Part shown: positions 170 through 16,698 of the stretch, one piece after another | Layout of the letters: every line of letters starts with the position of its first letter | How positions within the stretch are numbered: the first letter of the stretch is position 1 | DNA from: Mesorhizobium terrae | GTDB taxonomy: Bacteria > Pseudomonadota > Alphaproteobacteria > Rhizobiales > Rhizobiaceae | DNA: 64,000 bases | Direction: 5' to 3' | NCBI RefSeq assembly: GCF_008727715.1 | Contig: NZ_CP044218.1 | Span: 3,427,501-3,491,500, forward strand | Notes under the pieces: generated by a model | Seen by the model: only the letters and a program-made list of their open reading frames with translations | Databases searched by the model: none | What the model was told of the DNA's origin: nothing | Program-made: the position numbers and the translations under genes

Positions 170-174
170 TCACA

Positions 175-1075: not shown

Positions 1076-1103
1076 GCTTCATTTTCAAAAATAGTCGGAT
1101 ACG

Positions 1104-1132: not shown

Positions 1133-1205
1133 CCCTCGCCAGCCTGGTGCTGAACGATGGCTGAACACGTCCTTCCGGCCCGGTTCAGTATGGTCATGCG
1201 AGAGT

Positions 1206-1281: not shown

Positions 1282-1282
1282 G

Positions 1283-1699: not shown

Positions 1700-1947
1700 T
1701 AAAGCCGCGGTTTGCGAAAAAGCCCCTCCGCGTTGATGGTGAACTCTCTCAAGATGAAAATGACGCGCAAGCACCTGGGTGTCTCGCGAGCAGCCCTTCT
1801 TCAGAACCAGCAAGGACGCGATTCAAGACGACGAATTGGTGCCAAGCGCAACAACGCAGGCCCCATATCGCCCCTAAGCGCCAGTTTCATCTTGGTCCGA
1901 CGCAGATATTCGCCGGCAACGCGTTGTTGTCCCCGTGTCGAACGTGG
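1700..1947. other. Intergenic, no supported gene
   Basis: This stretch of about 250 bp separates the curlin gene from the convergent ABC ATPase gene. It holds only short overlapping ORFs without recognisable motifs or ribosome sites. No hairpin with a T-run was found. Confidence 0.5.
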
Positions 1948-2736
1948 CTAGCGAACGGATTTTAGGAACGCGCCGAGGCGGGGGCTGCGCGGCTGGCGCA
2001 GCACTTCGGCTGGCGGGCCTTCTTCCTCGATGCGCCCGTCATGGAAGAACACCACCTTGTCGGAGACCTCGCGGGCAAAGCTCATTTCGTGCGTCACGAC
2101 CAGCATGGTACGGCCTTCCTTCGCCAGCGCACGGATCACCGCGAGCACCTCGCCGACCAGTTCGGGGTCGAGCGCCGAGGTCGGTTCGTCGAACAGCAGC
2201 AGTTCTGGCTCCACGGCAAGGGCCCGCGCGATGGCGACGCGTTGCTGCTGGCCGCCCGACAGCGAAGCCGGATAGGCGTTGGCCTTCTCCTGCAAGCCGA
2301 CCTTGGCAAGCAATTCCATGGCCCGCTGCACGGCCTGCTGGCGTGGAACGCCGTGCACATGGATCGGAACCTTGATGATGTTTTCAAGCACCGTCCAGTG
2401 CGACCACAGATTGAACTGCTGGAACACCATGCCGGTGCGGCGGCGCAGCCATTCGATGCCTGCTTGCGGAGGGACCTTTCCAGCGCCCATTTCCAGACTG
2501 CGGCCCTTGAAGTCTATTTGACCGGAGCTTGGCGCTTCGAGGAAATTCAGACAGCGCAGGAAAGTGCTTTTGCCTGAACCGCTTGCGCCGATGATCGAAA
2601 CCACCTGATGCTCGTAGGCTTTGAAAGAAACGCCCTTGAGCACCTCGACGACGCCGAAGCTCTTGCGCAAATTCCGCGACTCGATTGTCGGCACCGCAGG
2701 CGTGGGTTTGGTGGCCGGCAGTTCAGTTGTATTCAT
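1948..2736 (-). CDS. Polar amino acid/opine ABC transporter ATPase (HisP/OccP type)
   Basis: Cytoplasmic ATPase of 262 residues that powers the adjacent HisQ/HisM-type permeases. Walker A is GASGSGKST, the Q-loop FQQFNLW, the signature LSGGQQQR, Walker B LLLFDEPTSALD and the switch His VVTHEM. The stretch IEWLRRRTGMVFQQFNLW is typical of the polar amino acid subfamily. The ATG at 2736 is chosen over the longer ORF because TCCTCC (GGAGGA on the coding strand) lies just upstream and the leader beyond it is not family-like. It is last in a binding protein, permease, permease, ATPase operon and is separated from the permease by 145 bp. The substrate is probably a basic amino acid or an opine-like conjugate, judged from the catabolic genes nearby. 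Confidence 0.9.
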   Translation of the reverse strand: MNTTELPATKPTPAVPTIESRNLRKSFGVVEVLKGVSFKAYEHQVVSIIGASGSGKSTFLRCLNFLEAPSSGQIDFKGRSLEMGAGKVPPQAGIEWLRRRTGMVFQQFNLWSHWTVLENIIKVPIHVHGVPRQQAVQRAMELLAKVGLQEKANAYPASLSGGQQQRVAIARALAVEPELLLFDEPTSALDPELVGEVLAVIRALAKEGRTMLVVTHEMSFAREVSDKVVFFHDGRIEEEGPPAEVLRQPRSPRLGAFLKSVR

Positions 2737-2881
2737 CGTTTCCTCCGGTCGGTCTGGCCAGGCGGCAGAGCAAGTCTCGGCCGGCGCGCCATTGCTGGAA
2801 CAGGCGATTTTATGTGCTGTGGTGTCCGGCTGATCGGTGTGGCCGATCGACGCCTCGGCGCGGCAGGACGAGACTTGCGCC

Positions 2882-3577
2882 TCAGCCCTCCATTGCGAAG
2901 CCCCCATTGCGCATCATCCGGGCCTCGAGCAGCCGCACCCCGAAACTGAGCGCCATATTAAGCCCGAGATACACCGCGCCCGCCGCCAGGAAGACCTCGA
3001 TCGGAGCATAGGTCTCCGAAGCCAGGATCCGCGCCTGTCCGGTCAGCTCGATAATGGTGATGGTGCTGGCCAGTGACGTGCCTTTGAGGATGAGGATCAA
3101 CTCGTTACCATAGGCGGGCAGCATGGCGCGCAGGGCCTGGGGGAACACCACCAGCCGGAACCTCTGCGTGGCGGTAAGGCCGAACGCCTTGGCTGCCTCG
3201 ATCTGCCCGCGCGGCACCGAAAGCAGCCCACCGCGAATGATCTCGCTGCCATAAGCCGCCGTGTTCAAGGACAGGGCGATGAGCGCGCAGGCATAGGCTT
3301 CCCGGAAGATCGGCCACAGGATGGAATTGCGCATGGCGTCGAGCTGGCCGAGCCCGTAGTAGACGAAGAAAACCTGGGCCAGCAGCGGCGTTCCGCGGAT
3401 GATGTAGACATAGGTGTAGGCGAGCGCCGAAAATGCGCGGATGCCTGAAAGCCTCGCCGCCGCCAGCAGCACCGCCAGCATGAAACCGAGCGCGATCGAC
3501 GTGACGGCGAGTTCGAGCGTTAGCGGCAGTGCCGAGAGCAGCGCCGGAAACGAGCCGAAGAGCACATCCCATCTCAT
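2882..3577 (-). CDS. Amino acid/opine ABC transporter permease (HisM/OccM type)
   Basis: Inner-membrane permease of 231 residues with about five hydrophobic segments. The EAA loop that contacts the ATPase is seen as GQIEAAKAFGLTATQRFRLV (about residues 124-143), followed by PQALRAMLPAYGNELI, a signature of the HisMQ family. RGTPLLAQVFFVYYG is also typical. Its start overlaps the stop of the neighbouring permease by 4 bp (ATGA), which indicates translational coupling. It pairs with that permease to form the channel. Confidence 0.9.
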   Translation of the reverse strand: MRWDVLFGSFPALLSALPLTLELAVTSIALGFMLAVLLAAARLSGIRAFSALAYTYVYIIRGTPLLAQVFFVYYGLGQLDAMRNSILWPIFREAYACALIALSLNTAAYGSEIIRGGLLSVPRGQIEAAKAFGLTATQRFRLVVFPQALRAMLPAYGNELILILKGTSLASTITIIELTGQARILASETYAPIEVFLAAGAVYLGLNMALSFGVRLLEARMMRNGGFAMEG

Positions 3578-4293
3578 TTGCCATATCCCCCGACGACGGA
3601 GCGGCTGAAATGACGTTCGGCGCTATCGAAAGCCTTGTTCGAGATCGCTGTGAAGACGAGGAAGATGAGGATCGCGACCATGTAGAACAGAAATGGACTG
3701 CGGGTTGAACCGGCCGCCACGTCTATAGTGCGCATCAGTTCAACCAGCCCGGTAACAGAGACCAGCGCCGTATCTTTCAGCACCAGCTGCCAGACATTGG
3801 AGATCGACGGCAAGGCATAGCGCAGCATTTGCGGCAGCTTGATGTGGCAAAACAATGTGGATCGCCTCATTCCGAAGGCACTGGCGGCCTCGATCTGTCC
3901 TTTCGGGATGGCCTGGAAGGCACCGCGAAACACCTCGGCGCTGTAGGCCGCGCAGATCAGGATAACGGCCAGGACGCCGGCGCTGAAGGCGTCCGCAGCG
4001 ACTGCACCGGAATAACCCAGCGCGTCGGCGACATAGCGGTAGAAGTGGCCGCCGCCGAAGAACAGCAGATAGATCACCAGGAGTTCGGGCACGCCGCGGA
4101 CAACCGTGACATAGACACCGGAAATGGAGCGCAGCAGGAGACTTGAAGAGAGCCGCGCGGCCGCGATGGGCAAGCCCACGACGAGCCCGCCGGCAAAGCC
4201 CAATGCTGCGATGACCAGGGTCATCGCAGCACCGCGCGCCAGTTCGTCGCCCCACCCGGTCGGGCCGAAGGCGAGAAGGTCGAGGAAATTCAT
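3574..4293 (-). CDS. Amino acid/opine ABC transporter permease (HisQ/OccQ type)
   Basis: Inner-membrane permease of 239 residues, partner of the permease at 2882. Family motifs visible are VVRGVPELLVIYLLFFGG and the EAA loop GQIEAASAFGMRRSTLF followed by KLPQMLRYALPSISN. It overlaps the binding protein gene by 4 bp at the upstream end and the other permease by 4 bp at the downstream end, so the four transport genes form one operon. Several C-terminal residues (SAERHFSRS) match the usual tail of OccQ/HisQ proteins. Confidence 0.9.
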   Translation of the reverse strand: MNFLDLLAFGPTGWGDELARGAAMTLVIAALGFAGGLVVGLPIAAARLSSSLLLRSISGVYVTVVRGVPELLVIYLLFFGGGHFYRYVADALGYSGAVAADAFSAGVLAVILICAAYSAEVFRGAFQAIPKGQIEAASAFGMRRSTLFCHIKLPQMLRYALPSISNVWQLVLKDTALVSVTGLVELMRTIDVAAGSTRSPFLFYMVAILIFLVFTAISNKAFDSAERHFSRSVVGGYGK

Positions 4294-5162
4294 TTGGCGA
4301 CGTTTTCAGGGATCGAACCGTCGACGCCGATCCATTTGACGCTCATCTTCGAGATGCTGCCGTCGGCGGTCGCCTCGCGGATCGCCTTGTTGAACTGCTC
4401 GCGCAGTTCCGTTTCCTCACCCTTGCGGAACGCCAGCGCGACACCCTTGCCGAGTGCGCCGCCTTTCAGGGCTGGGCCAAACGCGACAAATTTCTTGCCG
4501 GCCTTTTCCTGTTCGCCGATGAAATTGAGTGTGGAACCGGCGCCATCGACGGCGGCGTCGATGCGGCCGGCGACGAGGTCGAGCAGCATGTTCTCGCCCT
4601 TGTCATAGATTTTCACTTTGACGCCCGGAAAAATCCCCTCGAAGAACTTCGCATGCGTCGACGCGCGCTCGACGCCGACGGTCGCATCCTTGAGCGCGGT
4701 CGCGACATCGCCGATGACGGCCTTGTCCTTGTCGCTCATCGATCCAAGCAGGATGGTCGAGCCTGCGCCGCTCTTGAACTGGCCGAGCTTGCTTTCACCG
4801 GAAGCGATCAGACGCGTCGGGCCGGCATAATAGGCGATCGAGAAATCGACCGCCTTTGCGCGTTCGTCGGTGATGGAGAGCGAAGCGAGAATGGCGTCAA
4901 ACCTCTTTTCGTTGAGGGCAGGGATCATGCCGTCGAAATTCTGGATGACCCACTCGCATTTGACGTTCATGCGCTTGCAGATGTCGTCGACCAGATCGGC
5001 TTCGAAGCCGATAAGCTTGCCCGCCGGATCGGTGTAGTTGAACGGCGCGTAGGTGCCGTCGGTGGCGAGTTTCACCACCCGCTGCTCTGCTGCCTGGATC
5101 GTGCTTGCCCCGGCGAGAAGCATCGCCGCGGAGACAAGCAGCATTCGTCTCTTCATGTTCAT
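4290..5162 (-). CDS. Periplasmic amino acid/opine-binding protein (HisJ/OccJ type)
   Basis: Solute-binding protein of 290 residues. A signal peptide is visible (MKRRMLLVSAAMLLAGAST, cleavage near IQA-A). The mature start VVKLATDGTYAPFNYTDPAG is the classical SBP_bac_3 opening. EADLVDDICKRMNVKCEWV and the substrate-contact region FDAILASLSITDERAKAVDFS follow. Family members bind basic amino acids, octopine or nopaline. The ATG at 5162 is followed by a second in-frame ATG at 5156, and GAGGGTGA lies just upstream. It is the first gene of the transport operon; a 9-bp inverted repeat lies in the 160 bp upstream. Confidence 0.9.
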   Translation of the reverse strand: MNMKRRMLLVSAAMLLAGASTIQAAEQRVVKLATDGTYAPFNYTDPAGKLIGFEADLVDDICKRMNVKCEWVIQNFDGMIPALNEKRFDAILASLSITDERAKAVDFSIAYYAGPTRLIASGESKLGQFKSGAGSTILLGSMSDKDKAVIGDVATALKDATVGVERASTHAKFFEGIFPGVKVKIYDKGENMLLDLVAGRIDAAVDGAGSTLNFIGEQEKAGKKFVAFGPALKGGALGKGVALAFRKGEETELREQFNKAIREATADGSISKMSVKWIGVDGSIPENVAK

Positions 5163-5265
5163 TTTCGCTCACCCTCTGTTCTTGTTTACGCCGCGCCGGG
5201 AGCGCCCAGAACGGGCGTCTTGCGCGGAGCCCCATCGAGAGTAGGCCGAAAGACAGCCACGTTCG

Positions 5266-5308
5266 GTCAAACCAACATTGGCGGGCGGCAAAAAATGTCT
5301 GGTTTGAC
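5266..5308. promoter_or_regulatory. Inverted repeat upstream of transport operon, possible LysR operator
   Basis: GTCAAACCA at 5266-5274 is mirrored exactly by TGGTTTGAC at 5300-5308 across 25 nt. The symmetry continues imperfectly inwards (ACATT and AATGT). It lies between the LysR regulator stop and the binding-protein start, where a regulator of the transport operon would bind. Confidence 0.45.
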
Positions 5309-5323
5309 GGCCCACCCGGCAGT

Positions 5324-6226
5324 TTATTTTGCCAACTCCAACTGGGTGCCCTGGCTCTTCAGCCATGCCACGAAGGCCTGCGGAACCCGTCCTGGTGTGT
5401 GGATGACGGCATAATAGGCCCCGAGCACGATATCGACCTGCGGGCACAGCCGGATGATGTTGCCAGATTGCAGCAAAGGGGCGACGAAAGCTGTGTTGGC
5501 CTGGGCGACACCGAGGCCCGAAAGACAGGCGTCGATCGATGATTCATCGGTGTCGAAGACGATGCTGCGGCCAAGCGGTTCGAAGGGGATGGCAGCCCCC
5601 TTGCACCATTGGCGCCAGGACCAGGCATCAGCCGTGTCCTGCAGGATCGGCAGAGCGAGGACTTGCGCCGGGTCGGTCACTGCAACTTGCCCGTCCAGCA
5701 GTGCCGGCCGGCAAATAGGCGCGGTGTTGTCCGCCAGGAACATCTCGCCCTCCGTGTCTGCGTCCTGCGGCAAACCACGCGCATACTTGATCTCGATGTC
5801 GATCCTGTCGCTGCCGGCCGCTCCGATGGTGCGAAAGTGCAGATCTACCCCCGGGTGTCCGAGATGATAGTGCTCTATCCTCGGGATCAGCCAACGCTGC
5901 GTCAGTGTTACCGGCGCCCATATGGTCAGCTTGGCGGCTTGGCTTGAAACTTCGCGCACGCCCTTGCGGACTTCGGCCAGCGCATTCTTGGCATGACCGA
6001 GGAAGGCTTTGCCCGTCTCCGTCAGTTCGATGGCGTTGTGGCTTCGCTGGAACAGCGTTACGTCAAGCGACTGTTCGAGCAGCTTGATCTGCCGGCTCAC
6101 CGCGCCGGGCGTCAGGTTCAATTCCGAGGCGGCAAGCGTCAAACTGCCAAGACGCGACGCGGCCTCAAATGCGACGAGCGTGTTCAGCCAGGGTAGCCTG
6201 ACGGTCACTGCATGTCTGGCGCTCAT
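5324..6226 (-). CDS. LysR-family regulator (GcvA-like subgroup)
   Basis: DNA-binding regulator of 300 residues. The N-terminal winged helix-turn-helix (about residues 9-68) reads LNTLVAFEAASRLGSLTLAA and then LTPGAVSRQIKLLEQSL. The effector domain follows from about residue 95, with family-like AKLTIWAPVTLTQRWLIPRI. The start LPWLNTLVAFEAA is typical of GcvA-type LysR proteins. It lies directly upstream of, and on the same strand as, the transport operon. It is divergent from an Lrp-family gene across about 120 bp. By analogy with OccR/NocR it may sense the imported compound; this is inference. Confidence 0.88.
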   Translation of the reverse strand: MSARHAVTVRLPWLNTLVAFEAASRLGSLTLAASELNLTPGAVSRQIKLLEQSLDVTLFQRSHNAIELTETGKAFLGHAKNALAEVRKGVREVSSQAAKLTIWAPVTLTQRWLIPRIEHYHLGHPGVDLHFRTIGAAGSDRIDIEIKYARGLPQDADTEGEMFLADNTAPICRPALLDGQVAVTDPAQVLALPILQDTADAWSWRQWCKGAAIPFEPLGRSIVFDTDESSIDACLSGLGVAQANTAFVAPLLQSGNIIRLCPQVDIVLGAYYAVIHTPGRVPQAFVAWLKSQGTQLELAK

Positions 6227-6349
6227 TCAGGCGTTACCTTTTTTCGATTGCAAGCCTTGGGCGTCCTCTCATTCTGGCCGAACCCAGCAGACCGACTGGT
6301 CGGTGGCGCGTGTGCAGCCGCAGTTGAGCCTCGTCAGGAGAAAAACACA

Positions 6350-6895
6350 ATGAACATGGTGCCCTTGAAGTCGGAATTCGCAGGCCTGCCCGGCAAGGTC
6401 GACCGCATCGATCTGCGTATTCTCACGGAACTTCAGAAGAACGGCCGGATCACGAATTTCAAACTATCCTCACTCGTCGGCATCTCGGCCAGCCCGTGCC
6501 ACAAGCGCGTGCGCCGGCTGGAAAAGATGGGGCTGATCAGTGGCTATCGCGCCCAGATCTACTGGTCGCGGCTCTATCCCAACGTCACGGTCTTCGCCGC
6601 GGTTTCGTTGAAGAACCACGGCTCGGTCGACTTCCAGACCTTCGAGCGCCGCATCAAGCACCATCCCGAGATCACCAACTGTTTCGGATTGTGCGGGCCT
6701 TACGACTACATGCTGCGCTTCGATTGCCGTGATATCGCGGCCTACGAAGCCACCTCGCGCGAACTTCTCGACGGCGACGTGTCGTTCTCCCGCTTCGACA
6801 GTTTCGTGGTGCTGCGCGAGATCAAGAACGAGCCTTCGTCTCCGGCAACTACCTCATTGCAGACACCACAGGACGAATTGCGGCGGGTTGCCTGA
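6350..6895 (+). CDS. Lrp/AsnC-family transcriptional regulator
   Basis: Protein of 181 residues. An AsnC-type helix-turn-helix lies at about residues 13-65 (VDRIDLRILTELQKNGRITN, then VGISASPCHKRVRRLEKMGLI). The RAM effector domain follows (about 80-160). The ORF is open from 6212, but the ATG at 6350 has AGGAG 10-12 bp upstream and gives the normal family start. It is divergent from the LysR gene and convergent with the FAD oxidoreductase gene. Lrp proteins in such loci commonly respond to an amino acid. The C-terminus extends about 20 residues past the RAM domain. Confidence 0.88.
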   Translation: MNMVPLKSEFAGLPGKVDRIDLRILTELQKNGRITNFKLSSLVGISASPCHKRVRRLEKMGLISGYRAQIYWSRLYPNVTVFAAVSLKNHGSVDFQTFERRIKHHPEITNCFGLCGPYDYMLRFDCRDIAAYEATSRELLDGDVSFSRFDSFVVLREIKNEPSSPATTSLQTPQDELRRVA

Positions 6896-6922
6896 CCTTG
6901 CTTGTAGTCAAGCCGTCTCGTT

Positions 6923-8086
6923 TCAGGCGGTTTGGACAAGCGGTGTCTTGCCGACGGCATCTGGACCCTTATCAAACCGGTAGGGGTCGAAGCCTTCGAT
7001 CTGTGTCGATGTGCGGCCGTCAAGCACCAGTTCGGCGACCACTTCGCCGATGCCGGGGCCGAGCTGGAAACCATGCCCGGAAAAACCGAAGGCATGGATC
7101 AGTCCGCCGACGATGCGGCTTCTTCCGAGGAATGGCAGCGAATCCGGCGACTTGCCTTCGACGCCGGCCCAGGTGCGGATGAAATTGCGGCCGCGCAGGA
7201 ACGGCAGCACGTCGACGGCGATGCGCGACGCATCAAAGAGGTTCTGGGGAACGTATTTCGCGCGGCCGGTGTCGAGATCGGCGCCGCCCGGGCCCCGGCC
7301 GAAGAGAAGATTTCCCCGGCCAATCTGGCGGGCGTAAAAGAAGCGCCCGTTGACCGGGTAGTCCACCGTCGACGTGATCATGCGGGGAAATGGCTCGCTG
7401 ACCACCATTTGCGGGGCCATCACATCGAGCGGAAAGACCTCCGAAAATTGTGCCGCAAGGCGCGCGCCCCAAGCGCCGGCTGCATTGATCAGGGTCGGTG
7501 CCCGAACCCTGGTTCCAGATTCGCTCTCGATCTGAAAGCACGCGCCATCGTGATGCGCGGTCCGCACAGCGTCGTGCTCGCGGATATCGACGCCGAGCTT
7601 GCGCGTGGCGATGGCGAAGACCGGCGTGACAAGCCGTGGATTGGCCGCACCGTCGCTGGCGACGAAGCATCCGCCGAGCACCTTCGTGCCGATCCAGGGG
7701 AAACGCCGTGCAACTTCCGCGCCCGTCATCAATTGCGTGCCGACGCCATGACCATCAGCCATGGTGGCCCATTGTTCGACGGCAGCCATATGTTCGGCGC
7801 GGTCGCAGATCTCGATATGCCCAGTGATCTCCGTCTCGCAGCTTTCGCCGACGAGGGTTTCGATCTTCTGCCACTGGCTGCGGGCGCGCAGGCTGAGCGG
7901 CAGTTCGGGTTCGGCGCGGCCATTGGTGCGCAGGCCGCCGAAATTCACGCCGCTGGCCTGGGAGCCGACCGTACCGCGTTCGAACAGCATGACGCGCGCG
8001 CCGCGCCGGGCAAGATAGTAGGCCGAGCAGACGCCCGCGATACCGCCGCCGACGATGATGACGTCCGTTTCAGAAACTCTGGTCAT
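6923..8086 (-). CDS. FAD-dependent D-amino acid/opine oxidase-type subunit (DAO family, OoxB/HcnC-like)
   Basis: Flavoprotein of 387 residues. The dinucleotide-binding motif DVIIVGGGIAGVCSAYYLAR is at about residues 7-26, and the DAO-type C-terminus contains HAFGFSGHGFQLGPGIGEV. It resembles the catalytic beta subunit of octopine/nopaline oxidases, hydrogen cyanide synthase HcnC and sarcosine oxidase beta, which oxidise a secondary or primary amine to an imine. The ATG at 8086 overlaps the upstream gene by 17 bp, so it is probably co-translated. With the two upstream Fe-S/FAD subunit genes it makes a complete three-subunit dehydrogenase. The substrate is not shown by sequence. Confidence 0.85.
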   Translation of the reverse strand: MTRVSETDVIIVGGGIAGVCSAYYLARRGARVMLFERGTVGSQASGVNFGGLRTNGRAEPELPLSLRARSQWQKIETLVGESCETEITGHIEICDRAEHMAAVEQWATMADGHGVGTQLMTGAEVARRFPWIGTKVLGGCFVASDGAANPRLVTPVFAIATRKLGVDIREHDAVRTAHHDGACFQIESESGTRVRAPTLINAAGAWGARLAAQFSEVFPLDVMAPQMVVSEPFPRMITSTVDYPVNGRFFYARQIGRGNLLFGRGPGGADLDTGRAKYVPQNLFDASRIAVDVLPFLRGRNFIRTWAGVEGKSPDSLPFLGRSRIVGGLIHAFGFSGHGFQLGPGIGEVVAELVLDGRTSTQIEGFDPYRFDKGPDAVGKTPLVQTA

Positions 8087-9503
8087 CGGCTTCACTTTTT
8101 TCACCAGCACGCATCCAGGCGTCGACCTGCGGATCTGCCTGGCCGCCGGCATTTGCATACGAGATCGGTTTGACGGGTCCCTGTCCGCGCAGCTTGCCGA
8201 CCTGTTCGAGCGGCCTTCCGGTCGCCGCCGAAAGCAACTCGGCCAGGACGGGGCCGCAGACGCGGCCCTGGCAGCGTCCCATGCCGGGCCGGGCGAGCGC
8301 CTTCAGCCTATTGACCTCCCGCGGTTCGAACTTGGCGATTGCGGCCCTGGCCTCGCCGAAGGTGACGTTCTCGCAGCGACACAGGATGGTTTCGTCGGGC
8401 GCTTCGCCAATCCAGTCGGCGGGAAAGGGAAAGCTTGTCTCGACACCCTTGCGAAAGGTGACAAGGCGACCAAGCTCGCGCTCGATCTGGCGCATCCGTG
8501 TCTTCGATGATGGCAGCCCGATGTCGGCAAGCAACGCCAGCGCCGCGCGCTCGCCGGCGAGTTCGGCGACATCGGCGCCGCCGATCGCGCTGCCGTCGCC
8601 CGCGACATAGATGCCGTCGCCGGCGCGGCCCTGGCCATCGTGCGCGACGACCCACTGCCGGTTGGCCGCATCGAAGCGGGTGCGGCATCCGGCAATTTCG
8701 GCAAGCTGCATTTCGGGAGTAAGCCCGAAACCGAGCCCGACGGCATCGCACGGGATAAAATCATCGCGACCGCCGGCGCTGAAGCGGATGCCCTTTACAC
8801 TCTCCGTGCCCTCAACCGAGCGCAGCCGCACGCCTTCGCGCAGCATGACGCGTTTACGCGAGAGATAGCGGCGATAGGCGAGGCCGCGCAGCAGCATTTT
8901 GGGTGCGCGGGCCATCCACGGCGCGCCACGGACCTTGTCGAGATAGGAGGCGGAATCGAGCACCGCCACGACATTGGCGCCGGCCTTCGCATACTGGTAG
9001 GCGACCAGATAGAGCAGCGGCCCGGTGCCGGCGAAGACCACGGCGCGTCCTATGGAACAGGCCTGGTTCTTTAGCGCGATTTGCGATCCGCCGAGCGTGA
9101 ACACACCGGGCAAGGTCCATCCCGGGATCGGGATAATCCGGTCCATCGCACCGGTGCTCAACAGCAGCCGGTCGAATTCCTGCCTGCCGGCGCCGGATTG
9201 GTCGCTTGTGTGCACGGCGCCGTCGAAGATGTTCCAGACCAGCGTGTTCGGCCGATAGTCGATCTTGCCGGCAAGAGCGTCGAACATGTCGTGCAGACGC
9301 ACCGCCTTTGGCGCGTCGTCGCCATAAAGGCTGGCTGGCGGGCGCTGGAATCCGCCGGGCTGGCGCCGGTAGATCTGGCCGCCGCTCGCCGGTGCTTCGC
9401 TGATTACCGTGAGGTTTCGGCATCCGGCGCGATGAAGTGTTTCGACCGCCCGCGAACCTGCCGGGCCGGTGCCCACCACGATGATCCGATCGTTGCCTGC
9501 CAT
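8070..9503 (-). CDS. FAD/NAD(P)-binding oxidoreductase with BFD-like [2Fe-2S] domain (OoxA/HcnB-like)
   Basis: Protein of 477 residues. The FAD-binding motif is IIVVGTGPAGSRAVETLHRAG near the N-terminus, and a second nucleotide-binding motif is VVFAGTGPLLYLVAYQYA in the middle. The C-terminal domain carries LCRCENVTFGEA and RCQGRVCGP, four cysteines as in bacterioferritin-associated-ferredoxin-type clusters. OoxA, NoxA and HcnB share this layout and transfer electrons from the catalytic DAO subunit. The ATG at 9503 is chosen because AAGGTG precedes it and the Rossmann fold begins at once; the ORF upstream of it overlaps the small Fe-S gene. It starts 2 bp after that gene ends. Confidence 0.87.
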   Translation of the reverse strand: MAGNDRIIVVGTGPAGSRAVETLHRAGCRNLTVISEAPASGGQIYRRQPGGFQRPPASLYGDDAPKAVRLHDMFDALAGKIDYRPNTLVWNIFDGAVHTSDQSGAGRQEFDRLLLSTGAMDRIIPIPGWTLPGVFTLGGSQIALKNQACSIGRAVVFAGTGPLLYLVAYQYAKAGANVVAVLDSASYLDKVRGAPWMARAPKMLLRGLAYRRYLSRKRVMLREGVRLRSVEGTESVKGIRFSAGGRDDFIPCDAVGLGFGLTPEMQLAEIAGCRTRFDAANRQWVVAHDGQGRAGDGIYVAGDGSAIGGADVAELAGERAALALLADIGLPSSKTRMRQIERELGRLVTFRKGVETSFPFPADWIGEAPDETILCRCENVTFGEARAAIAKFEPREVNRLKALARPGMGRCQGRVCGPVLAELLSAATGRPLEQVGKLRGQGPVKPISYANAGGQADPQVDAWMRAGEKSEADDQSF

Positions 9504-9505
9504 GA

Positions 9506-9805
9506 TCACCTTGCCTCGCGCGTCAGCACGTCCATGCCGTGCTGGACCTGGGTGGTGCAGGCGCGAACCCGCTCGCCCGAGGCAAGCGACAGCCAGCAAT
9601 CCTGGCAGGCGCCCATGTTGCAGAAACCGGCGCGCGGCCCATCGCCGAATTCGGAATGCCGCAGATGCCTGCCATGAAGCAGCATCGCAGTCAGCAGCGT
9701 ATCGCCGTTGAGGCAAGAGACGCTCTCGCCGTCGATGCGGATTTCGACCGGCGCCCGGCCGGTCTCGCCCAAGCGGATAAACTGTCCTGCACTGCTGCCT
9801 GTCAT
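9506..9805 (-). CDS. Small [2Fe-2S] ferredoxin-like subunit (HcnA/SoxA N-terminal type)
   Basis: Protein of 99 residues. It contains GFCNMGACQDCWL, the cysteine pattern of plant-type [2Fe-2S] domains, and a further cysteine in VRACTTQV. The N-terminal half has VEIRIDGESVSCLNGDTLL, the usual start of the Fer2_4 domain. In hydrogen cyanide synthase and opine oxidases a subunit like this works with the HcnB and HcnC partners, which are the next two genes. The ATG at 9805 was chosen because the protein then has the family size of about 100 residues. Confidence 0.85.
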   Translation of the reverse strand: MTGSSAGQFIRLGETGRAPVEIRIDGESVSCLNGDTLLTAMLLHGRHLRHSEFGDGPRAGFCNMGACQDCWLSLASGERVRACTTQVQHGMDVLTREAR

Positions 9806-9917
9806 CGGATCACAACTCGAAAATAACGAGGACAACCTAGCGGCCGTCGGCTCGCAACCTTTTCCAAATGACGCGTCGGCACGAACAGATTCTTCCAAAG
9901 ATCGGCTGCCTGCTGCG

Positions 9918-11438
9918 TCAATTTGATGAGGCACGATTTGATTGCCGCAACTGGACGAGTTGCTCGTCCAACCGCTCCCGCGCCGATGCAAGTTGCGCAT
10001 GCAACGCGTCGAGCTTGGCTTGGTCGCTATCGATTTCGGCATGTGCAGTATCGATCATGCGACGGATTTCGTCCGGCGAAGCGGCGCCGGCCGAACGCCG
10101 GGCCGTGATCGAGCGACCGGGGTCGAGCGCCTGCATGATGGCCGCTTCGGATATGTCGAGCGGATGGCCGAGTTCCCGCTCGATGGCCGCAAGAGCGTCG
10201 CCATATTCGATTTCGTCCGGTTTCAAACCACGCTCCAGCGCATTGCGCACCAGATCCGCTACGATGTGATGTGCCTGGCGAAATGACAGACGCCCCTCGC
10301 GCACCAGGCAGTCGGCAAGATCGGTCGCCGTGGAGAAACCGGCGCCGGCGCGTTGCCGCATCGTTTCGACACAAGGCTCGATTTTTTCGGCGACGAGGCG
10401 GGTAATGGTCAGCGCGTTGCCGGCCAATCGCAGTGTAGGCCAAAGCGGCGCCAGCGAGGAACGGCCGGTGTCGCCGGCGTGGCTGAAATGACCGCCCTTG
10501 AGGATGGCGAATGTTGCCGTCAGCCCGCCGATCACCTCGCCGGAGCTCGCCTTCAGATATTCGACCGCCACGGGGTTCTTCTTCTGCGGCATGATGCTCG
10601 ATGTGCCGGCGATGCTGTCGGGAAAACGAACGAGGCCGAATTCCTGCGTGCCCCAGATATACATGTCCTGGGCGAAGCGCCCCCAATTGGCCGCCAAGCC
10701 GAGGACGGCCACCGCCGCGTCCCACGCATAGTCGCGCGATGCCACCGCATCCTGGGCATGCAGATGGACCCTGTCGAAGCCAAGCAGCTCGGCAACCAAT
10801 TGCCGGTCGATCGGGAAAGAGGTGCCGGCGAATGCACAGGCGCCGAGGGGAGAACTGTTGGCCGCGTGAAAAGCATGGAAGAGGCGCAGGGCGTCACGCG
10901 CCAGCGCCTGCGCAATTCCTGTCAGATAGAAGCCGAAGGTAGTCGGCTGCGCCGGTTGCATATGCGTGTAGCCAGGCATGATGGTGTCGGCAAATTCCTC
11001 GGCCCGGCGCAACAAGGCGCGCCGCAACGCAATGATTTTCTCGACAAGGTCAAGAACCAACCGCCGCATCGCCAGACGATCGAGCGTCGCGTTGATGTCG
11101 TTGCGGCTGCGCGCGAGGTGCAGCCGCCCGCCGGTCTCGGCACCCGCGCGCGCCATCAGCAGCGCCTCGAAGTTGAAGTAGCCATCTTCGCGGGCCGGAT
11201 CGCGGGGAATGACGTCCTCGCCATCCCTGCGAATGCCGGACAACGCCTCGGCAAGGTCGCTCGCGACCGCCGGCTCGACCAATCCGGTCCTGGCCAGCAT
11301 CACCAGATGCGCCTCGTTGACAGCGCACAGATCATCGATGCCGAGAGCCAGTTCCCGTTCTATGCGCGGCCGGAAGATGAGCTCGAGAATTTCGGGAGCG
11401 AGCGGCTCGGCGAGGCGTGGCGAAACCTTCGATTGCAT
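9918..11438 (-). CDS. Argininosuccinate lyase-family enzyme (not canonical ArgH)
   Basis: Protein of 506 residues in the fumarase/aspartase/argininosuccinate lyase superfamily. HLARSRNDINATLDR lies at about residues 107-121, GYTHMQPAQPTTFG at 156-169 (catalytic His) and the signature GTSSIMPQKKNPV at 278-290 (catalytic Ser loop). The family splits C-N bonds with loss of fumarate. A C-terminal extension of about 45 residues is helical and Ala/Gln/Arg rich, longer than typical ArgH. It sits among oxidoreductase and opine-like genes, away from arginine biosynthesis. I infer a catabolic lyase for an N-(dicarboxyethyl) amine, as in EDDS lyase. A second ArgH cannot be excluded. Confidence 0.8.
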   Translation of the reverse strand: MQSKVSPRLAEPLAPEILELIFRPRIERELALGIDDLCAVNEAHLVMLARTGLVEPAVASDLAEALSGIRRDGEDVIPRDPAREDGYFNFEALLMARAGAETGGRLHLARSRNDINATLDRLAMRRLVLDLVEKIIALRRALLRRAEEFADTIMPGYTHMQPAQPTTFGFYLTGIAQALARDALRLFHAFHAANSSPLGACAFAGTSFPIDRQLVAELLGFDRVHLHAQDAVASRDYAWDAAVAVLGLAANWGRFAQDMYIWGTQEFGLVRFPDSIAGTSSIMPQKKNPVAVEYLKASSGEVIGGLTATFAILKGGHFSHAGDTGRSSLAPLWPTLRLAGNALTITRLVAEKIEPCVETMRQRAGAGFSTATDLADCLVREGRLSFRQAHHIVADLVRNALERGLKPDEIEYGDALAAIERELGHPLDISEAAIMQALDPGRSITARRSAGAASPDEIRRMIDTAHAEIDSDQAKLDALHAQLASARERLDEQLVQLRQSNRASSN

Positions 11439-11448
11439 GGGACGGACC

Positions 11449-11919
11449 TCAATAGGGGGTGCCGTCCTTGCGGACGAAGCGGCGGCCGCGTCCGTCCGGT
11501 ATCTGCAACAAATCGTCGTCCGGATAGGTCGATACATTGGCCTGGTCAAAGCTTGCCACTTCGACGAACACCACCCTTGCTTCGCTACGATTGACGATCT
11601 GGTGGCCATTGGCTTCGCCGGCGGGAAAGCCAATGGCCTGGCCGGGGCGAACGAGCTGCTCGCCCTGGTCCGAGATCAGCGTCATCTCGCCCTCCAGAAC
11701 GAGGATGAGTTCGTCCTCGTGGCTGTGCCAGACCCTGAGGGACGATGCGCAACCGCTCGGCAATTCGACATGGACTGCCGAAAGATTGTTCAGTCCGGCA
11801 AGGGAACCCAGGCGGCGCTTGCCGCGCCCCTTGACGGGTTCCTGTAGATGCTCCGGATATGTCGATCGTGTATCGGGCTCGATGCTTTCCGGATCGATCA
11901 CGCGAGGCGGTTTGGACAT
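11449..11919 (-). CDS. Cupin-domain protein
   Basis: Protein of 156 residues with a single cupin barrel (about residues 45-130). Motif 1 is seen as WHSHEDELILVLEGEMTL, containing the two histidines and the glutamate that usually bind a metal. Motif 2 is seen as GQAIGFPAGEANGHQIVN. Proteins of this group are often annotated as cupin, transcriptional regulator or mannose-6-phosphate isomerase-like, but there is no DNA-binding domain here. It lies 10 bp upstream of the lyase gene on the same strand, so it is probably cotranscribed. It may be an isomerase, dioxygenase or sensor of a pathway intermediate; its function is open. Confidence 0.8.
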   Translation of the reverse strand: MSKPPRVIDPESIEPDTRSTYPEHLQEPVKGRGKRRLGSLAGLNNLSAVHVELPSGCASSLRVWHSHEDELILVLEGEMTLISDQGEQLVRPGQAIGFPAGEANGHQIVNRSEARVVFVEVASFDQANVSTYPDDDLLQIPDGRGRRFVRKDGTPY

Positions 11920-11940
11920 TCGTGTTCCTCTTTGATGCAT

Positions 11941-11955
11941 CCGCCCGTCGGGCGG
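11941..11955. other. GC-rich palindrome upstream of cupin gene
   Basis: CCGCCCG and CGGGCGG flank a single T, 22 bp upstream of the cupin start. It could be an operator or a leader hairpin; no T-run follows on either strand. Confidence 0.35.
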
Positions 11956-12084
11956 GATTGCCTTGACGATAGGCCACGGCGCGCAGAACAAGTTCCCGTT
12001 TCCGCTGCCGGGGAGGGCGGCTTTTGTCACCTTGACCGGGCGAGCAGCAGAAGCTGTCGTGGGCGGACAGCCCCTGCCGTGATG

Positions 12085-13521
12085 TCAGTCGGCGATGTAG
12101 GCGGTCTTGGTCTGGGTGAAGAATTCGACAGCGCCGAGCCCCATTTCCTTCGGCCCATAGGCGGAAGCGCCGCGACCGCCGAAGGGCACGTGATAATCGG
12201 AACCGACGGTCGGCAAATTGACCATCACCATGCCGCTGTTGCTGGCACGCATGAAGGCGCGGGCCTTTGCGTGCGAGCCAGTGAAGATGCCGGCGCTGAG
12301 ACCGAACTCGGTGGCGTTGGCAATGCGTATTGCATCATCGAGGTCGGTTGCCTTGAAAACCGAGACGATCGGCCCGAAAACCTCTTCGCGGTTGATGCTC
12401 TGGCGCATGTCGCCGTCGAGAAAGATCGCCGGTTCGAAATAGTGGCCATTGGCCGGCGCCTCGAGCACGCGGCCGCCGAAGGCGTGGTGGGCGCCGTCGT
12501 AGGGAGCGGCCTCGGCATAACGCGACACGCGCTGCAACTGCGCCGCACTGACCAGCGGACCGATGTCGGAGGTAGCGTCGAGCGCGTGCCCGACACGCAG
12601 TTTTGCGGTGCGCTCCACCAGCCGCTCGACAAAGGAATCGTGGACGACCGCATCGACGATGATGCGGCTGGATGCCGTGCAACGTTGCCCGGTCGAATAG
12701 AAGGCGCCGCGCACGGCGGCATCGACGGCCTTGTCCTGGTCTGCGTCATCGGCGATCACCAGCGGGTTCTTGCCACCCAATTCGAGCTGCAGCTTGGCGC
12801 CGCGCACCACCGCTTGCGCAGCTATTTTGCCGCCCACGGCTCCGGAGCCGGTGAAGCTGATGGCGTCGACGCCGGGATCGGCGACCAGCGCCGAGCCCAC
12901 ATCACCGCCACCCATGACCATCTGGAAGACGCCGCGCGGCACGCCGGCTTCATGCAGGATGCTGGCCAGTTCCCAGGCAATCGCATTGGTCAGTTCCGAC
13001 GGCTTGAGGATGACGCAGTTGCCATAGGCCAGCGCTGGCGCGCTTTTCCAGGCCGGGATCGAGAATGGAAAATTCCAGGGTGTGATCAGTCCGACCACAC
13101 CGACGGCTTCGCGCCGGACATCGACGTCGACGCCTTTGCGCACCGAACGCAAACTGGCACCTGCAAGCCGCACCGCCTCACCGGCGAAATATTTGAAGGT
13201 ATGGGCGGCTTTCGTCACCTCGGCGACGGCTTCCGGCAAGGTCTTGCCTTCTTCCCGCGCCAGCAATGTCGCCAGTTCCTGCGTGCGCCGGGCGATCGCG
13301 TCGGCCGCCCTGTCGAGAATGTCGAAGCGTTGCTGGGGGGACGTTTCCTTCCAATCGCCCAGTGCCTTGCGGGCAGCCGCCACCGCGTCGTGAACGTCGG
13401 AAGCGGTGGCCATTGCGAAGCGACCGATAACCTCGGTGGTGTCGGAGGGGTTGCGGCCCTCGCTGAAGTGCTCGGCTGAACGCCAGGCCCCGTCGATATA
13501 GTTGTTCCTGACCTGTGGCAT
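12085..13521 (-). CDS. NAD(P)-dependent aldehyde dehydrogenase
   Basis: Protein of 478 residues, normal ALDH size. GLITPWNFPFSIPAWKSAPA marks the cofactor region. SFTGSGAVGGKIA is the turn over the cofactor, LELGGKNPLVI carries the catalytic Glu and GQRCTASSRI the catalytic Cys. EVFGPIVSVF and MVNLPTVGSDYHVPFGG are typical C-terminal blocks. It resembles alpha-ketoglutaric semialdehyde and succinate semialdehyde dehydrogenases, which oxidise short semialdehydes in amino acid or sugar acid breakdown. It is the first gene of the leftward catabolic block and faces the aminotransferase gene. The substrate is probably a semialdehyde made by that pathway. Confidence 0.9.
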   Translation of the reverse strand: MPQVRNNYIDGAWRSAEHFSEGRNPSDTTEVIGRFAMATASDVHDAVAAARKALGDWKETSPQQRFDILDRAADAIARRTQELATLLAREEGKTLPEAVAEVTKAAHTFKYFAGEAVRLAGASLRSVRKGVDVDVRREAVGVVGLITPWNFPFSIPAWKSAPALAYGNCVILKPSELTNAIAWELASILHEAGVPRGVFQMVMGGGDVGSALVADPGVDAISFTGSGAVGGKIAAQAVVRGAKLQLELGGKNPLVIADDADQDKAVDAAVRGAFYSTGQRCTASSRIIVDAVVHDSFVERLVERTAKLRVGHALDATSDIGPLVSAAQLQRVSRYAEAAPYDGAHHAFGGRVLEAPANGHYFEPAIFLDGDMRQSINREEVFGPIVSVFKATDLDDAIRIANATEFGLSAGIFTGSHAKARAFMRASNSGMVMVNLPTVGSDYHVPFGGRGASAYGPKEMGLGAVEFFTQTKTAYIAD

Positions 13522-13745
13522 GCATGAACCTCGCTGTGAACAGCGGCACGCTCGAAATGCGAAAGCCGCGCGCCTCTGTATGGCGCGGGCGTGGAAGAAT
13601 ATGCTGTCATTGCCATGCGGGGCTCGGACATCTTCTGCCATGGCGCCGGAAGCTTCGGGCTAACCTTGCGCCGACTGGCATTAGCTTGGCTTCTCGACAC
13701 GCCGCGTCGGTTTGCGGCGAAAATGCACTCGCGATGGGACCCGAT

Positions 13746-14870
13746 ATGCGCATTGACCTTTTCGAACTCGAACGCAGCCAGTCGATCTGGGAAAACACGG
13801 TCGAATACAATCTGACCGAGAGCGGGCTGCATCCCTTCACGATGCGGGAACTGCTCGACCCGCACGAGATCGAAGCGCTGGTCGATCTGCCGCTGGGCTA
13901 TGGCCACACCGAAGGCGAGCCGGCGCTGCGTGAAGCGATCGCCGCGCGCTATCCCGGTGCCGGCGCCGACAATGTGCTCGTCACGACGGGGTCGTCGGAG
14001 GCCAACATGCTGGCGGTGATGAGCCTGCTCGACAACGGTGATGAAGCCATCATCATCACGCCCAACTTCATGCAATTGCCGGGACTGGCGAAGGCGCTCG
14101 GCGCAAAGGTGCATCAGGTGCCACTCAGGCTTTCCGGCAGCCGCTGGATGCTCGATCTCGACGAGGTGGCGCGGGCGATCACGCCCAACACCAGGTTGAT
14201 CTCGGTCTGCAACCCCAACAACCCCACCGGCGGCGTGCTTTCGGCCGACGAACGGTCAGGACTGGCGTTGCTTGCGACACGTCACGGCATCGCTCTTCAT
14301 GCCGATGAAATCTATCGCGGCGCGGAACTCGCTGGCCCGGAGACCGAAACGCTTTTCGCGGCCGCTCCAGCCGGCGTGATTACCGGCGGCACGGCGAAGG
14401 CGATGGCGCTGGCCGGGCTGCGCATCGGATGGATCGTGTCGTCAAAGGACATCATCGAGAAGGCGATGCAGCGGCAGGATTATACGACGATCGGCAGCAA
14501 CGCGCTTGGGCAGCGCATCGCGCTGTTTGCCCTGCAGCCGGAAAAGCGTGCACGGATCGTGGCGCGCAACCGGCGCCTTCTCGCCCGCAATCTCGATCAG
14601 CTGTCGCGGTGGGTAGCGGTGCGCTCGGCGATCTTCAGCTGGGTGCCGCCGCAGGCAGGCGCGATGGCCTTCCTGCGCTACGACCTTCCGGTCTCGTCGG
14701 ATGATTTCTGCCGTCGGTTGCGCGAAACGCAAAGCGTGTTTGCGGTCGCGGGCAGCTGGTTCGGAATGGAGGGGCATCTGCGCCTTGGCATCGGCGGCGA
14801 GCCGGACCATTTCCGGGACGCCTTGCAGCGCATCGACCGTTTTCTCCAGGATGAATTCGCGACCGCGTGA
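13746..14870 (+). CDS. PLP-dependent aminotransferase, class I/II
   Basis: Fold-type I aminotransferase of 374 residues. LPLGYGHTEGEPALREAIAA lies near the N-terminus, NPNNPTGGVL in the middle, HADEIYRG carries the PLP-binding Asp and Tyr, and GTAKAMALAGLRIGW the Schiff-base Lys. The N-terminus resembles a group related to capreomycidine synthase. The ORF is open from 13515 but overlaps the divergent ALDH start; ATG codons at 13734 and 13746 are both possible, and 13746 is preferred because MRIDLFELERSQSIWE is family-like. It is divergent from ALDH and convergent with the cyclodeaminase gene. It probably supplies or removes an amino group in the same pathway. Confidence 0.82.
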   Translation: MRIDLFELERSQSIWENTVEYNLTESGLHPFTMRELLDPHEIEALVDLPLGYGHTEGEPALREAIAARYPGAGADNVLVTTGSSEANMLAVMSLLDNGDEAIIITPNFMQLPGLAKALGAKVHQVPLRLSGSRWMLDLDEVARAITPNTRLISVCNPNNPTGGVLSADERSGLALLATRHGIALHADEIYRGAELAGPETETLFAAAPAGVITGGTAKAMALAGLRIGWIVSSKDIIEKAMQRQDYTTIGSNALGQRIALFALQPEKRARIVARNRRLLARNLDQLSRWVAVRSAIFSWVPPQAGAMAFLRYDLPVSSDDFCRRLRETQSVFAVAGSWFGMEGHLRLGIGGEPDHFRDALQRIDRFLQDEFATA

Positions 14871-14897
14871 CGGCAGTGCTGTGAGGCCGGAAATGGC

Positions 14898-15860
14898 TCA
14901 AGCGGTGGCGAGAACACCGAGCTTCCTGCACACGGCCTTGGCGAGGACGATATCCTGAACGGCGACGCCGGTAAGGTCGACGATGGAAATATCGGCGACC
15001 TGCCGGAAAAGGCGGTCCGGTCCCGAGATGACCGCGCCAAGTTCCAGCACGCGCTCCGGCGAAAGCAAACCGCGGGCGATGGCGTGATGGATCTCACCGC
15101 GTTCGAAACATTGCGAGTGGCTGTCGGCGATGACGCTTGCCGCCTTGCCCAGCAAGGCGGCATCGACTTCGGATTTTTCAGGCGTGTCCGCGCCCATCGC
15201 CACGATGTGCGTGCCCGGCCGGACGTCGCCGCTCATCAGGTACGGTGTCCTTGAAGCGGTCGTTGTGACGATAAGGCGTGCGTGTGCGGCAAGTTCTGCC
15301 GGCGATGCCGCGGTCCTCGCAACGAAGCCAAGCGCTGCGATGTCGGCCGCGCAATTCTTGGCGTTCTCGGCATTCCGAGCCCAGATCAGCACATTTCTAC
15401 ACAGTGTCACCTCGCGCAGGAACTGCGCCTGCAGCCGCGCCTGATTGCCCGAGCCGCAAATGCCGATGCATTCGAGTTCGGCCGGCATCAACCATTTGGC
15501 GGCCACCGCACCGGCTGCGGCAGTGCGTATGTCGGTGAGGTGGCCCTCGTCTTGCAATATGGCCAGGAGTCTGCCGTCGTTGGCGCTGAACACCAGGACC
15601 ACGCCGCCGGAAGAGGGGAGGCCGATGGATGGGTTTTCATAAAAGCCTGTGGCGATCTTGACGACAAAGACGCCGTCGCCGCGCACCGCGCCGTATTTGA
15701 TATGCATCTCGCCCGGCGGCTGGTCGAACAGCAATTCGCCGACTGGCGGCACTGTGGCCAGACCTTGCGAATAAAGGCCAAATGCGGTCTCCATTTCCGC
15801 AATGACGTCGATGCCCGATAGGGCCTGCTTGATCTCAGACAGATGTATGACAGCGGTCAT
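14898..15860 (-). CDS. Ornithine cyclodeaminase/mu-crystallin-family protein
   Basis: Protein of 320 residues. The Rossmann motif is IGICGSGNQARLQAQFL, and the substrate-side region LPSSGGVVLVFSANDGRLLAILQDEGHLTDIRT matches the family, with a lysine in HIKYGAVRG. Members act as ornithine cyclodeaminases, alanine dehydrogenases, ketimine reductases or opine-like dehydrogenases. In the occ and noc opine regions the analogous gene (ocd) completes arginine breakdown to proline. The ATG at 15860 has GGAGG 6-10 bp upstream. A 17-bp palindrome lies about 90 bp upstream. The exact reaction is not determinable from sequence. Confidence 0.85.
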   Translation of the reverse strand: MTAVIHLSEIKQALSGIDVIAEMETAFGLYSQGLATVPPVGELLFDQPPGEMHIKYGAVRGDGVFVVKIATGFYENPSIGLPSSGGVVLVFSANDGRLLAILQDEGHLTDIRTAAAGAVAAKWLMPAELECIGICGSGNQARLQAQFLREVTLCRNVLIWARNAENAKNCAADIAALGFVARTAASPAELAAHARLIVTTTASRTPYLMSGDVRPGTHIVAMGADTPEKSEVDAALLGKAASVIADSHSQCFERGEIHHAIARGLLSPERVLELGAVISGPDRLFRQVADISIVDLTGVAVQDIVLAKAVCRKLGVLATA

Positions 15861-15950
15861 TTCAGCCTCCCGAACCTGGTCGCCCGTCATAGCTTCTGTC
15901 GGCGCTATTTTCTGTCGAATATGTGGGAACAACAGAATTTCACGGTCATC

Positions 15951-16091: not shown

Positions 16092-16697
16092 ATGGAAAAC
16101 AGGCTTCGCAGGATTGCTCGGATTGTCCCCATCCTTGCCGCTACAATCTGCCTGGGGGTGGCGGGCGTGTTGGTTGTTGCGGTCGAGGCTACTTCGGCGC
16201 TTGCCGTCGAAAAGCCAGTTCCAATGGAAAAGAACCCGCCCGGCGACATTCCTGATACGCAGGTGTTCATCGACTATGCGGCGCCACAGGGGTTCACGCT
16301 GAAGGTTCCCGAAGGCTGGGCGCGCTCGGACCGCGCCGATGGCGCGAGTTTCGTCGACAAGTTCGACGGCGTCGTCGTCTCTGTGGCGAAGGCCGATGCA
16401 GCGCCGACCGTCGCGGCCGCCAAGACGACCTATGTTCCGGAACTCGAAAAGGCCGAACGCGCGGTCACAGTGAGCTCGGTGAAGGCGGAGGCTCTTCCGG
16501 CCGGAGCAGCGATCCGTATCGTCTACTCAACAAACTCGGAGCTCAATCCGGTGACCAACAAGCAGGTTCGCCTGGAGAACGAACGCTATTTGTTCTTCAA
16601 GGACGGCAAGTTGGTCACGCTGGAGTTTTACGCGCCCAAGGGTGCTGACAATGTCGACCAGTGGCAACTGATGTCCCAATCCTTCCGGTGGAAGTGA
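16092..16697 (+). CDS. Secreted small protein of unknown function (PsbP/DUF1795-like fold suspected)
   Basis: Protein of 201 residues. The N-terminal hydrophobic segment (residues about 11-33) looks like a signal peptide or anchor. The mature part starts after a Pro-rich stretch (VPMEKNPPGDIPD) and has FTLKVPEGWARSDRADGASF followed by a mixed alpha/beta domain, ending QWQLMSQSFRWK. The GWxR...FxDKFxG pattern recalls PsbP-like or DUF1795 proteins; this is only a resemblance. It ends 1 bp before the ATPase gene and so is almost certainly cotranscribed with the ABC system. It may be the periplasmic partner of that system. Confidence 0.6.
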   Translation: MENRLRRIARIVPILAATICLGVAGVLVVAVEATSALAVEKPVPMEKNPPGDIPDTQVFIDYAAPQGFTLKVPEGWARSDRADGASFVDKFDGVVVSVAKADAAPTVAAAKTTYVPELEKAERAVTVSSVKAEALPAGAAIRIVYSTNSELNPVTNKQVRLENERYLFFKDGKLVTLEFYAPKGADNVDQWQLMSQSFRWK

Positions 16698-16698
16698 C

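Follow-up and report, generated by a model that had tools for sequence, protein, structure and literature searches.

The window considered here, a stretch of 64,000 nucleotides from Mesorhizobium terrae, corresponds to C2:3427501-3491500, on the 5.73-Mb contig of a genome that totals 6.02 Mb in two contigs. It contains a compact unit of 14 genes (window 1948-15860; Table 1) that encodes a HisJQMP-type ATP-binding cassette (ABC) importer with its periplasmic binding protein, regulators of the LysR and Lrp/AsnC types, a three-subunit flavin/2Fe-2S dehydrogenase, a lyase of the argininosuccinate lyase (ASL, ArgH) superfamily, a cupin, an aldehyde dehydrogenase (ALDH), a pyridoxal phosphate (PLP) enzyme, and a member of the OCD/mu-crystallin family. 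An earlier reading of the sequence alone (the original prediction) described the region as a catabolic locus for opine-like compounds; all of the parts that it named are present, as judged from domain and model matches, and the locus is real, coherent and unusual. The Lrp/AsnC regulator went unmentioned in that reading.

Table 1. Genes of the unit, in window positions, with the basis of each assignment.
Feature	Position	Strand	Basis
Whole 14-gene unit	1947..15869		collinear with Mesorhizobium sp. SCN18 MAG (L010/L119), blastn
ABC importer ATPase	1948..2736	-	55% to OccP; dN/dS 0.061
ABC importer permease	2882..3577	-	55% to OccM
ABC importer permease	3574..4293	-	48% to OccQ
Periplasmic binding protein, SBP_bac_3	4290..5162	-	PF00497, PDB phmmer, pocket mapping
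LysR-type regulator	5324..6226	-	domain match; only helix-turn-helix (HTH) resembles OccR
Lrp/AsnC-type regulator	6350..6895	+	PF13412/PF01037; NF008370 below cut-off
OxB, FAD (DAO) subunit	6923..8086	-	DAO domain, PDB match, tree; R304-T-W306 motif
OxA, Pyr_redox_2 + Fer2_BFD subunit	8070..9503	-	domain matches
Small 2Fe-2S subunit (Fer2_4)	9506..9805	-	domain match
ArgH-superfamily C-N lyase	9918..11438	-	domain matches, alignment, residue mapping
Cupin, single-domain	11449..11919	-	PF07883
Aldehyde dehydrogenase	12085..13521	-	nearest alpha-ketoglutaric semialdehyde and 2,5-dioxovalerate dehydrogenase models, below cut-off
Class I/II PLP enzyme	13746..14870	+	nearest GntC, PRK07324, VioD models, below cut-off
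OCD/mu-crystallin family protein	14898..15860	-	family match; 25% to Ti Ocd

The nearest named relative of the locus lies in a metagenome-assembled genome (MAG) of Mesorhizobium sp. (L010; compared loci are designated by L numbers), the one other Mesorhizobium genome in which the same 14 genes were found in the same order. The two sequences are 83% identical by blastn over window 1947-14859 and 75% over 14909-15869, with no match at E<=1e-10 past either end of 1947-15869. Since the L010 sequence continues past both ends without matching, for about 2 kb beyond the ATPase end and more than 5 kb beyond the OCD-gene end, the flanks differ between the two genomes. The genes are closely spaced, some overlap, none is decayed, and all 14 show dN/dS values of 0.061-0.155 between the two genomes. 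The 14-gene locus is one sharply bounded unit under purifying selection.

The most distinctive member of the unit is the lyase, which shares with ArgH the superfamily fold, the ASL_C2 domain, the SSIMPQKKNP signature and the catalytic residues, and which passes the NCBIfam argH model TIGR00838. In ASL and in ethylenediamine disuccinate (EDDS) lyase, separate sets of residues form the substrate pocket and eliminate fumarate, and these were compared across 21 rows of the window lyase's clade and 9 ASL rows from an alignment of 50 (the remainder being the duplicates L119, L120 and L121, 12 rows grouping with EDDS lyase, which was itself set apart, and L021 (two rows), L025_463, L123 and L031). 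Ser111, Arg112, Asn113, Asp114, Thr158, His159, Ser281, Lys286 and Asn288 (window numbering) are kept in every clade row. Tyr320, Gln326 and Asp290 are absent from all 21, whereas the ASL rows carry Tyr320 and Gln326 in 9/9 and Asp290 in 8/9; the window lyase has His320, Arg326 and Val290 at these pocket positions, and the rows L021 (two), L025_463, L123 and L031 also have His where ASL has Tyr. The clade is separate in the tree (support 100/99) and has retained the fumarate-eliminating residues while losing the pocket residues that recognize the arginine precursor. These comparisons support the view, already taken in the original prediction, that the window lyase is a catabolic-type relative of ArgH and not the argininosuccinate lyase of the organism. 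The possibility that it is the sole ArgH is rejected, as a second lyase in the same genome (C2:2321242-2322522) carries the ASL pocket residues and represents the canonical enzyme. That the window protein is instead a spare argininosuccinate lyase of ordinary function, as its passing of TIGR00838 could suggest, is barely credible given the missing Tyr320, Gln326 and Asp290 and the presence of the canonical copy.

The resemblance to EDDS lyase (PDB 6g3d, 6rx8), which had been invoked for the release of fumarate from a succinyl-type opine, is limited. The two proteins are 30% identical, and the Asp290/Tyr320 pair of EDDS lyase, altered in the PDB variant 6rx8, corresponds to Val290/His320 in the window lyase, so that the active-site comparison finds the fumarate-eliminating residues kept and the pocket residues of both ArgH and EDDS lyase absent. 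In the tree, EDDS lyase falls outside the clade of the window lyase and joins L014_13553, L025_1964, L033-L038, L040, L042 and L043 (97/92), a position that is unsure because its branch is long (1.85). The members of this second ArgH-like clade (among them L014:13553-15067 and L025:1964-3478) show FPQKKNP rather than MPQKKNP, and their pocket loop is interrupted by a gap.

Fumarate release from N-substituted aspartates does fit the neighbours of some lyases in the window's clade, for which the iminodisuccinate (IDS) and fructose-asparagine pathways supply the background. The clade lyase of Agrobacterium sp. 33MFTa1.1 (L122) is preceded by an amino acid importer and by an MmgE/PrpD protein whose best PDB match is the IDS-epimerase 2hp0 (E 1e-59). 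An asparaginase-family protein lies upstream, and two proteins encoded 3' of the lyase come closest to the models for fructoselysine-6-phosphate deglycase and fructoselysine 6-kinase, respectively, without reaching either cut-off. The Cereibacter locus L135, whose lyase is 40% identical to that of the window and was not a row of the tree, has an asparaginase, an importer, the lyase, an SIS protein and an annotated fructoselysine 6-kinase, and no epimerase. The sets at L122:5334-15414 and L135:249-11606, each combining a lyase with an asparaginase, an importer and relatives of the fructoselysine-type deglycase and kinase, possibly represent a fumarate-releasing route for fructose-asparagine. 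In Cupriavidus (L124, annotated) and Achromobacter (L013 and L014, read by eye), the lyase adjoins genes for a LysR protein and for a binding protein of the tripartite-tricarboxylate type. N-substituted aspartates may be a common theme, one that would explain these neighbours.

The same neighbours, together with the lyase clade itself, favour the main rival to an opine-type interpretation, in which the unit degrades a plain N-substituted aspartate resembling iminodisuccinate, EDDS or aspergillomarasmine, the lyase taking one stereoisomer and the dehydrogenase the other. In L011, a protein that passes an amino acid racemase model is encoded some 1 kb downstream of the lyase; in L123, whose row falls immediately outside the clade, the lyase and an annotated racemase are about 9 kb apart. 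The window unit has no epimerase or racemase gene and, compared with the IDS-epimerase-type arrangement of L122, has a different importer and an added dehydrogenase; the absence of Asp290 and Tyr320 also counts against such a substrate. This aminodicarboxylate pathway is judged unlikely.

The dehydrogenase was originally assigned to the Oox/Nox type, an assignment that is not borne out. Compared with the octopine tumour-inducing (Ti) plasmid, OxB is 24% identical, OxA 34% (OoxA) and the small subunit 34%, and the genes run in the order Fd-A-B rather than B-Fd-A. Two types of flavin opine dehydrogenase are described in PMC4575208: type 1 comprises Oox, Nox, PpOdh and BjOdhB1, and type 2 comprises BjOdhB2 and BtOdh (C-A-B order) and is close to archaeal L-proline dehydrogenase. 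The same paper gives a B1-C-A-B2 layout for Bradyrhizobium japonicum and identifies its B2 enzyme as an octopine dehydrogenase. The same layout is present in the Bradyrhizobium locus L185, whose B1 is 47% identical to OoxB; the window OxB is 34% identical (209 bits) to the L185 B2 protein versus 24% (76 bits) to B1, and lies outside the type-1 clade formed by OoxB, L133 and L185 B1, to which it is 23-24% identical. With type 2 it shares the nearer relationship to B2, the C-A-B order of B. thailandensis (BtOdhC-A-B; PMC4575208) and the Arg304-x-Trp306 motif, which does not separate the types because it is also present in type-1 rows; it differs in that its identity to the protein at the Bradyrhizobium B2 position is no more than 34%. 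The best PDB match of OxB is chain B of 1y56, deposited as a sarcosine oxidase. The nearest OxB relatives (41-49%) include L127 and L134, both with other importers, L134 adding a peptidase-family and a Rid gene; OxA is 44-49% identical to its counterparts in L127, L134 and L152-L157. As far as its sequence can tell, the window dehydrogenase fits the type-2 branch of the flavin opine dehydrogenases and not Oox/Nox, and its grouping with an opine-dehydrogenase branch is in line with the original prediction.

The importer is 40-55% identical to that of occ, and its binding protein finds NocT and OccJ as its best PDB matches by phmmer (184 bits), the LAO entries scoring 144 and below. Contact residues were mapped from PMC4192606 and from Table 3 of PMC5740067, using for NocT a chain (5ot8) that has Ser at position 97, where the paper gives Gly; the resulting pocket consists of D35, Y38, F76, S96, R101, T116, E165, H170 and G207. 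The contacts on the arginine side are preserved in the LAO form by Asp35, Tyr38, Phe76 and Arg101, while Ser96 matches both OccJ and LAO. In LAO, the trio Ser92-Gln122-Asp161 is described as seemingly forming a rigid template (PMC5740067); the window protein has Thr116-His170-Gly207 instead. His170 is common to the window protein and NocT, in which the equivalent residue binds the alpha-ketoglutarate carboxylate (PMC4192606). Glu165 stands in place of Gln (OccJ, NocT) or Leu (LAO) and is also found in L115 and L117. Position 207 is Asp in the protein of an arginase locus (L131), and Asn and Ser in the opine-type loci L129 and L133. Neither the octopine nor the nopaline published signature is complete, NocT and OccJ being the nearest solved relatives; the alignment indicates a pocket with opine-type features, the comparison at position 207 being suggestive only. 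The retained cation-side pocket (D35, Y38, F76, with E165) argues against a plain aminodicarboxylate as the ligand.

The OCD-family protein and the PLP enzyme recur together elsewhere. The former is 54-59% identical to its counterparts in L115, L117, L125, L180 and L181 and 38-51% in L116, L118, L136 and L182, and in every case a PLP gene 40-46% identical to that of the window is either the direct neighbour or no more than 1 kb away; L119 (89%) also has the pair. Among loci scanned at a PLP identity of at least 40%, all ten (L115-L119, L125, L136, L180-L182) have the pair, although L118 shows an OCD match divided between two frames and a partial PLP match, and eight of the ten have a similar importer. 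The pairing is limited to close PLP relatives, since around 17 more distant ones from the family search (35-39%; L094-L110, about 1.5 kb on each side) a weak OCD match was seen in only two (L099, L107). The OCD-family protein of the window, 25% identical to Ti Ocd, is a member of the cyclodeaminase family but not Ocd itself, and forms a separate recurrent pair with the PLP enzyme. Between the binding protein and this pair, L115:6532-7815 and L117:11770-13272 encode a further protein, which in L115 is about 430 amino acids long, has no Pfam match and is weakly similar to DgaE-type PLP lyases. Three Mesorhizobium loci (L125, L180 and L181) share a conserved set in which the importer, OCD and PLP enzyme genes are accompanied by those for LysR, a class V PLP protein, an amidohydrolase and, next to the PLP gene, RidA. 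The L125 locus is plasmid-borne in a Lotus japonicus isolate, and the LysR, class V, RidA and amidohydrolase proteins of the other two are 89-96% identical to those of L125.

No substrate is read from the ALDH, the cupin or the PLP enzyme because none has an NCBIfam model above cut-off among the matches listed. The nearest solved structures of the PLP enzyme are 3op7 and 8fft, and it is judged at least as likely an eliminase as an aminotransferase. A pathway for an arginine or canavanine analogue can be envisaged in which the PLP enzyme eliminates a guanidino-type group, in the manner expected of GntC, VioD or canavanine gamma-lyase, and the lyase acts on the fumarate adduct of the product. 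The proximity of the GntC and VioD models, the LAO-like arginine-side residues of the binding protein and the RidA gene beside the PLP gene in L125, L180 and L181 speak for this scheme; it is nonetheless decidedly improbable, as both models score far below cut-off (GntC 262 versus 415; VioD 206 versus 391) and the lyase has lost the ASL pocket.

The original prediction held that the locus reproduces the plan of the occ and noc regions of Ti plasmids. The shared components are an OccQMP-T-type importer, a three-subunit flavin/2Fe-2S dehydrogenase, an OCD-superfamily gene and a LysR gene, to which the unit adds the lyase, cupin, ALDH, PLP enzyme and Lrp regulator. The unit differs in its location on a 5.73-Mb contig, in gene order, and in having no arginase, six arginase-family matches being found elsewhere in the genome; its LysR protein is not OccR, the two matching at 35% over residues 14-86 (HTH) only, and the dehydrogenase and OCD proteins are only 24-34% identical. 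Orthology to occ/noc is rejected on these grounds (OxB 24%, OxA 34%, OCD-family protein 25%, LysR over the HTH only), and the likeness holds for the importer and, at the level of the superfamily, the dehydrogenase, and not for the cyclodeaminase, the regulator or the gene order.

The unit as a whole is rare. A scan of genome contigs for the lyase listed 80 loci, 16 of them under 12 kb, of which one (L010) has the rest of the unit and five (L023, L030, L045, L059 and L066) have single weak matches; among the loci listed, co-occurrence of the genes is narrow. With the own genome included, the lyase was found at E<=1e-75 in 2 of 146 genomes of the genus and at E<=1e-80 in 3 of 297 genomes of the family, the other two being 43% and 41% identical. 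Outside the window genome and that of L010, the genus matches listed include no OxB above 49% identity (12/146 genomes at E<=1e-85), and the PLP enzymes listed do not exceed 47% (6/146 at E<=1e-80). The Fd-A-B dehydrogenase occurs without the rest of the unit in L127, L134, L153, L155 and L156, the OCD-PLP pair occurs without a lyase match in 9/9 loci scanned, and 79 of the 80 lyase loci listed are without the rest. Such separability would be expected of a mosaic island in which independent modules (importer with OCD-PLP, Fd-A-B dehydrogenase, and lyase-cupin-ALDH) share a place and not a pathway. Full-length conservation of the block in another genome, where the flanks differ, and its short spacing and overlaps with no decayed gene, make that account rather improbable.

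The preferred interpretation, which is given a little under an even chance, is that this self-contained catabolic unit imports and degrades an N-substituted amino acid, probably a basic one, and that one of its steps is the release of fumarate by the lyase. The substrate, named only to its general class, would consist of an amino acid that bears a carboxylic substituent on its alpha-nitrogen and whose side chain is probably cationic. In this scheme, the binding protein and importer, whose pocket is aligned with those of NocT and OccJ, would take up an opine-like compound, and the lyase would eliminate fumarate from an N-(1,2-dicarboxyethyl) group, as in an N-substituted aspartate, leaving the free amine. 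The dehydrogenase would oxidize a second C-N bond, or a stereoisomer that the lyase cannot use, to yield a 2-oxo acid and an amino acid. The PLP enzyme and its OCD-family partner, a pairing that is observed, may process the released amino acid, the ALDH may oxidize the resulting aldehyde, and the LysR and Lrp-type regulators would control the unit; the order of these steps is likewise presumptive. Several observations weigh against this interpretation. No known compound was matched with exactly these features, and the whole cluster was seen in two genomes only. The arginase locus L131 has an importer that resembles the one of the unit (46-58%) at least as closely as that of occ does. Asp also occupies position 207 in L132_9001, whose neighbours are an FAD oxidoreductase and an OCD gene, and the change at this position is weak evidence taken alone because OccJ-N202D is reported still to bind octopine (PMC5740067). 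The tree grouping of OxB with the type-2 B2 rows is moderate (88/90, with open forks), and the lyase scores 349.4 bits against the TIGR00838 cut-off of 279.5.

A more specific form of the proposal, an undescribed class of opine in which the alpha-nitrogen of a basic amino acid bears a succinyl (1,2-dicarboxyethyl) group, formally the product of joining arginine, or a relative, to oxaloacetate, is considered unlikely. If true, a succinyl-type opine would be cut by a fumarate-releasing lyase instead of, or alongside, an opine dehydrogenase, and one operon would hold two chemically different ways to cut an opine C-N bond.

With regard to the surroundings of the unit, a foreign base composition was considered and rejected, the block having 63.1% G+C, the right side of the window 63.8% and the left flank 59.4%. 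No tRNA gene was found in the window, and neither promoter-like sites (2, versus 2.5 in shuffled sequences) nor terminator-like sites (15, versus 12.6, sd 3.8) exceed chance. In an empty-site comparison with G073 (35 kb), window 16203-20657 aligns, together with one 49-base match at 40502-40550; the insertion point of the unit is not resolvable from G073, since nothing of window 1-1946 aligns there. A curli-type set of two Curlin-repeat proteins and a CsgH-family protein (window 175-1699; PF07012, PF21112) adjoins the unit. At window 59315-63021, another Lyase_1 protein, a protocatechuate 3,4-dioxygenase beta-type protein and an alpha/beta hydrolase-like open reading frame (the last read by eye) look like pca genes for the breakdown of aromatic compounds.

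The original interpretation is partly supported. A group of proteins annotated as argininosuccinate lyase appears to consist of catabolic C-N lyases that probably act on N-substituted aspartates. In the rows examined, this clade is set apart from true ArgH by residues 290, 320 and 326, which could be used to correct annotations, and its members are candidate C-N lyases for making N-substituted aspartates. If the unit works as proposed, it would join the worlds of opine dehydrogenases and aminodicarboxylate lyases in a single pathway and would point to an unknown nutrient.

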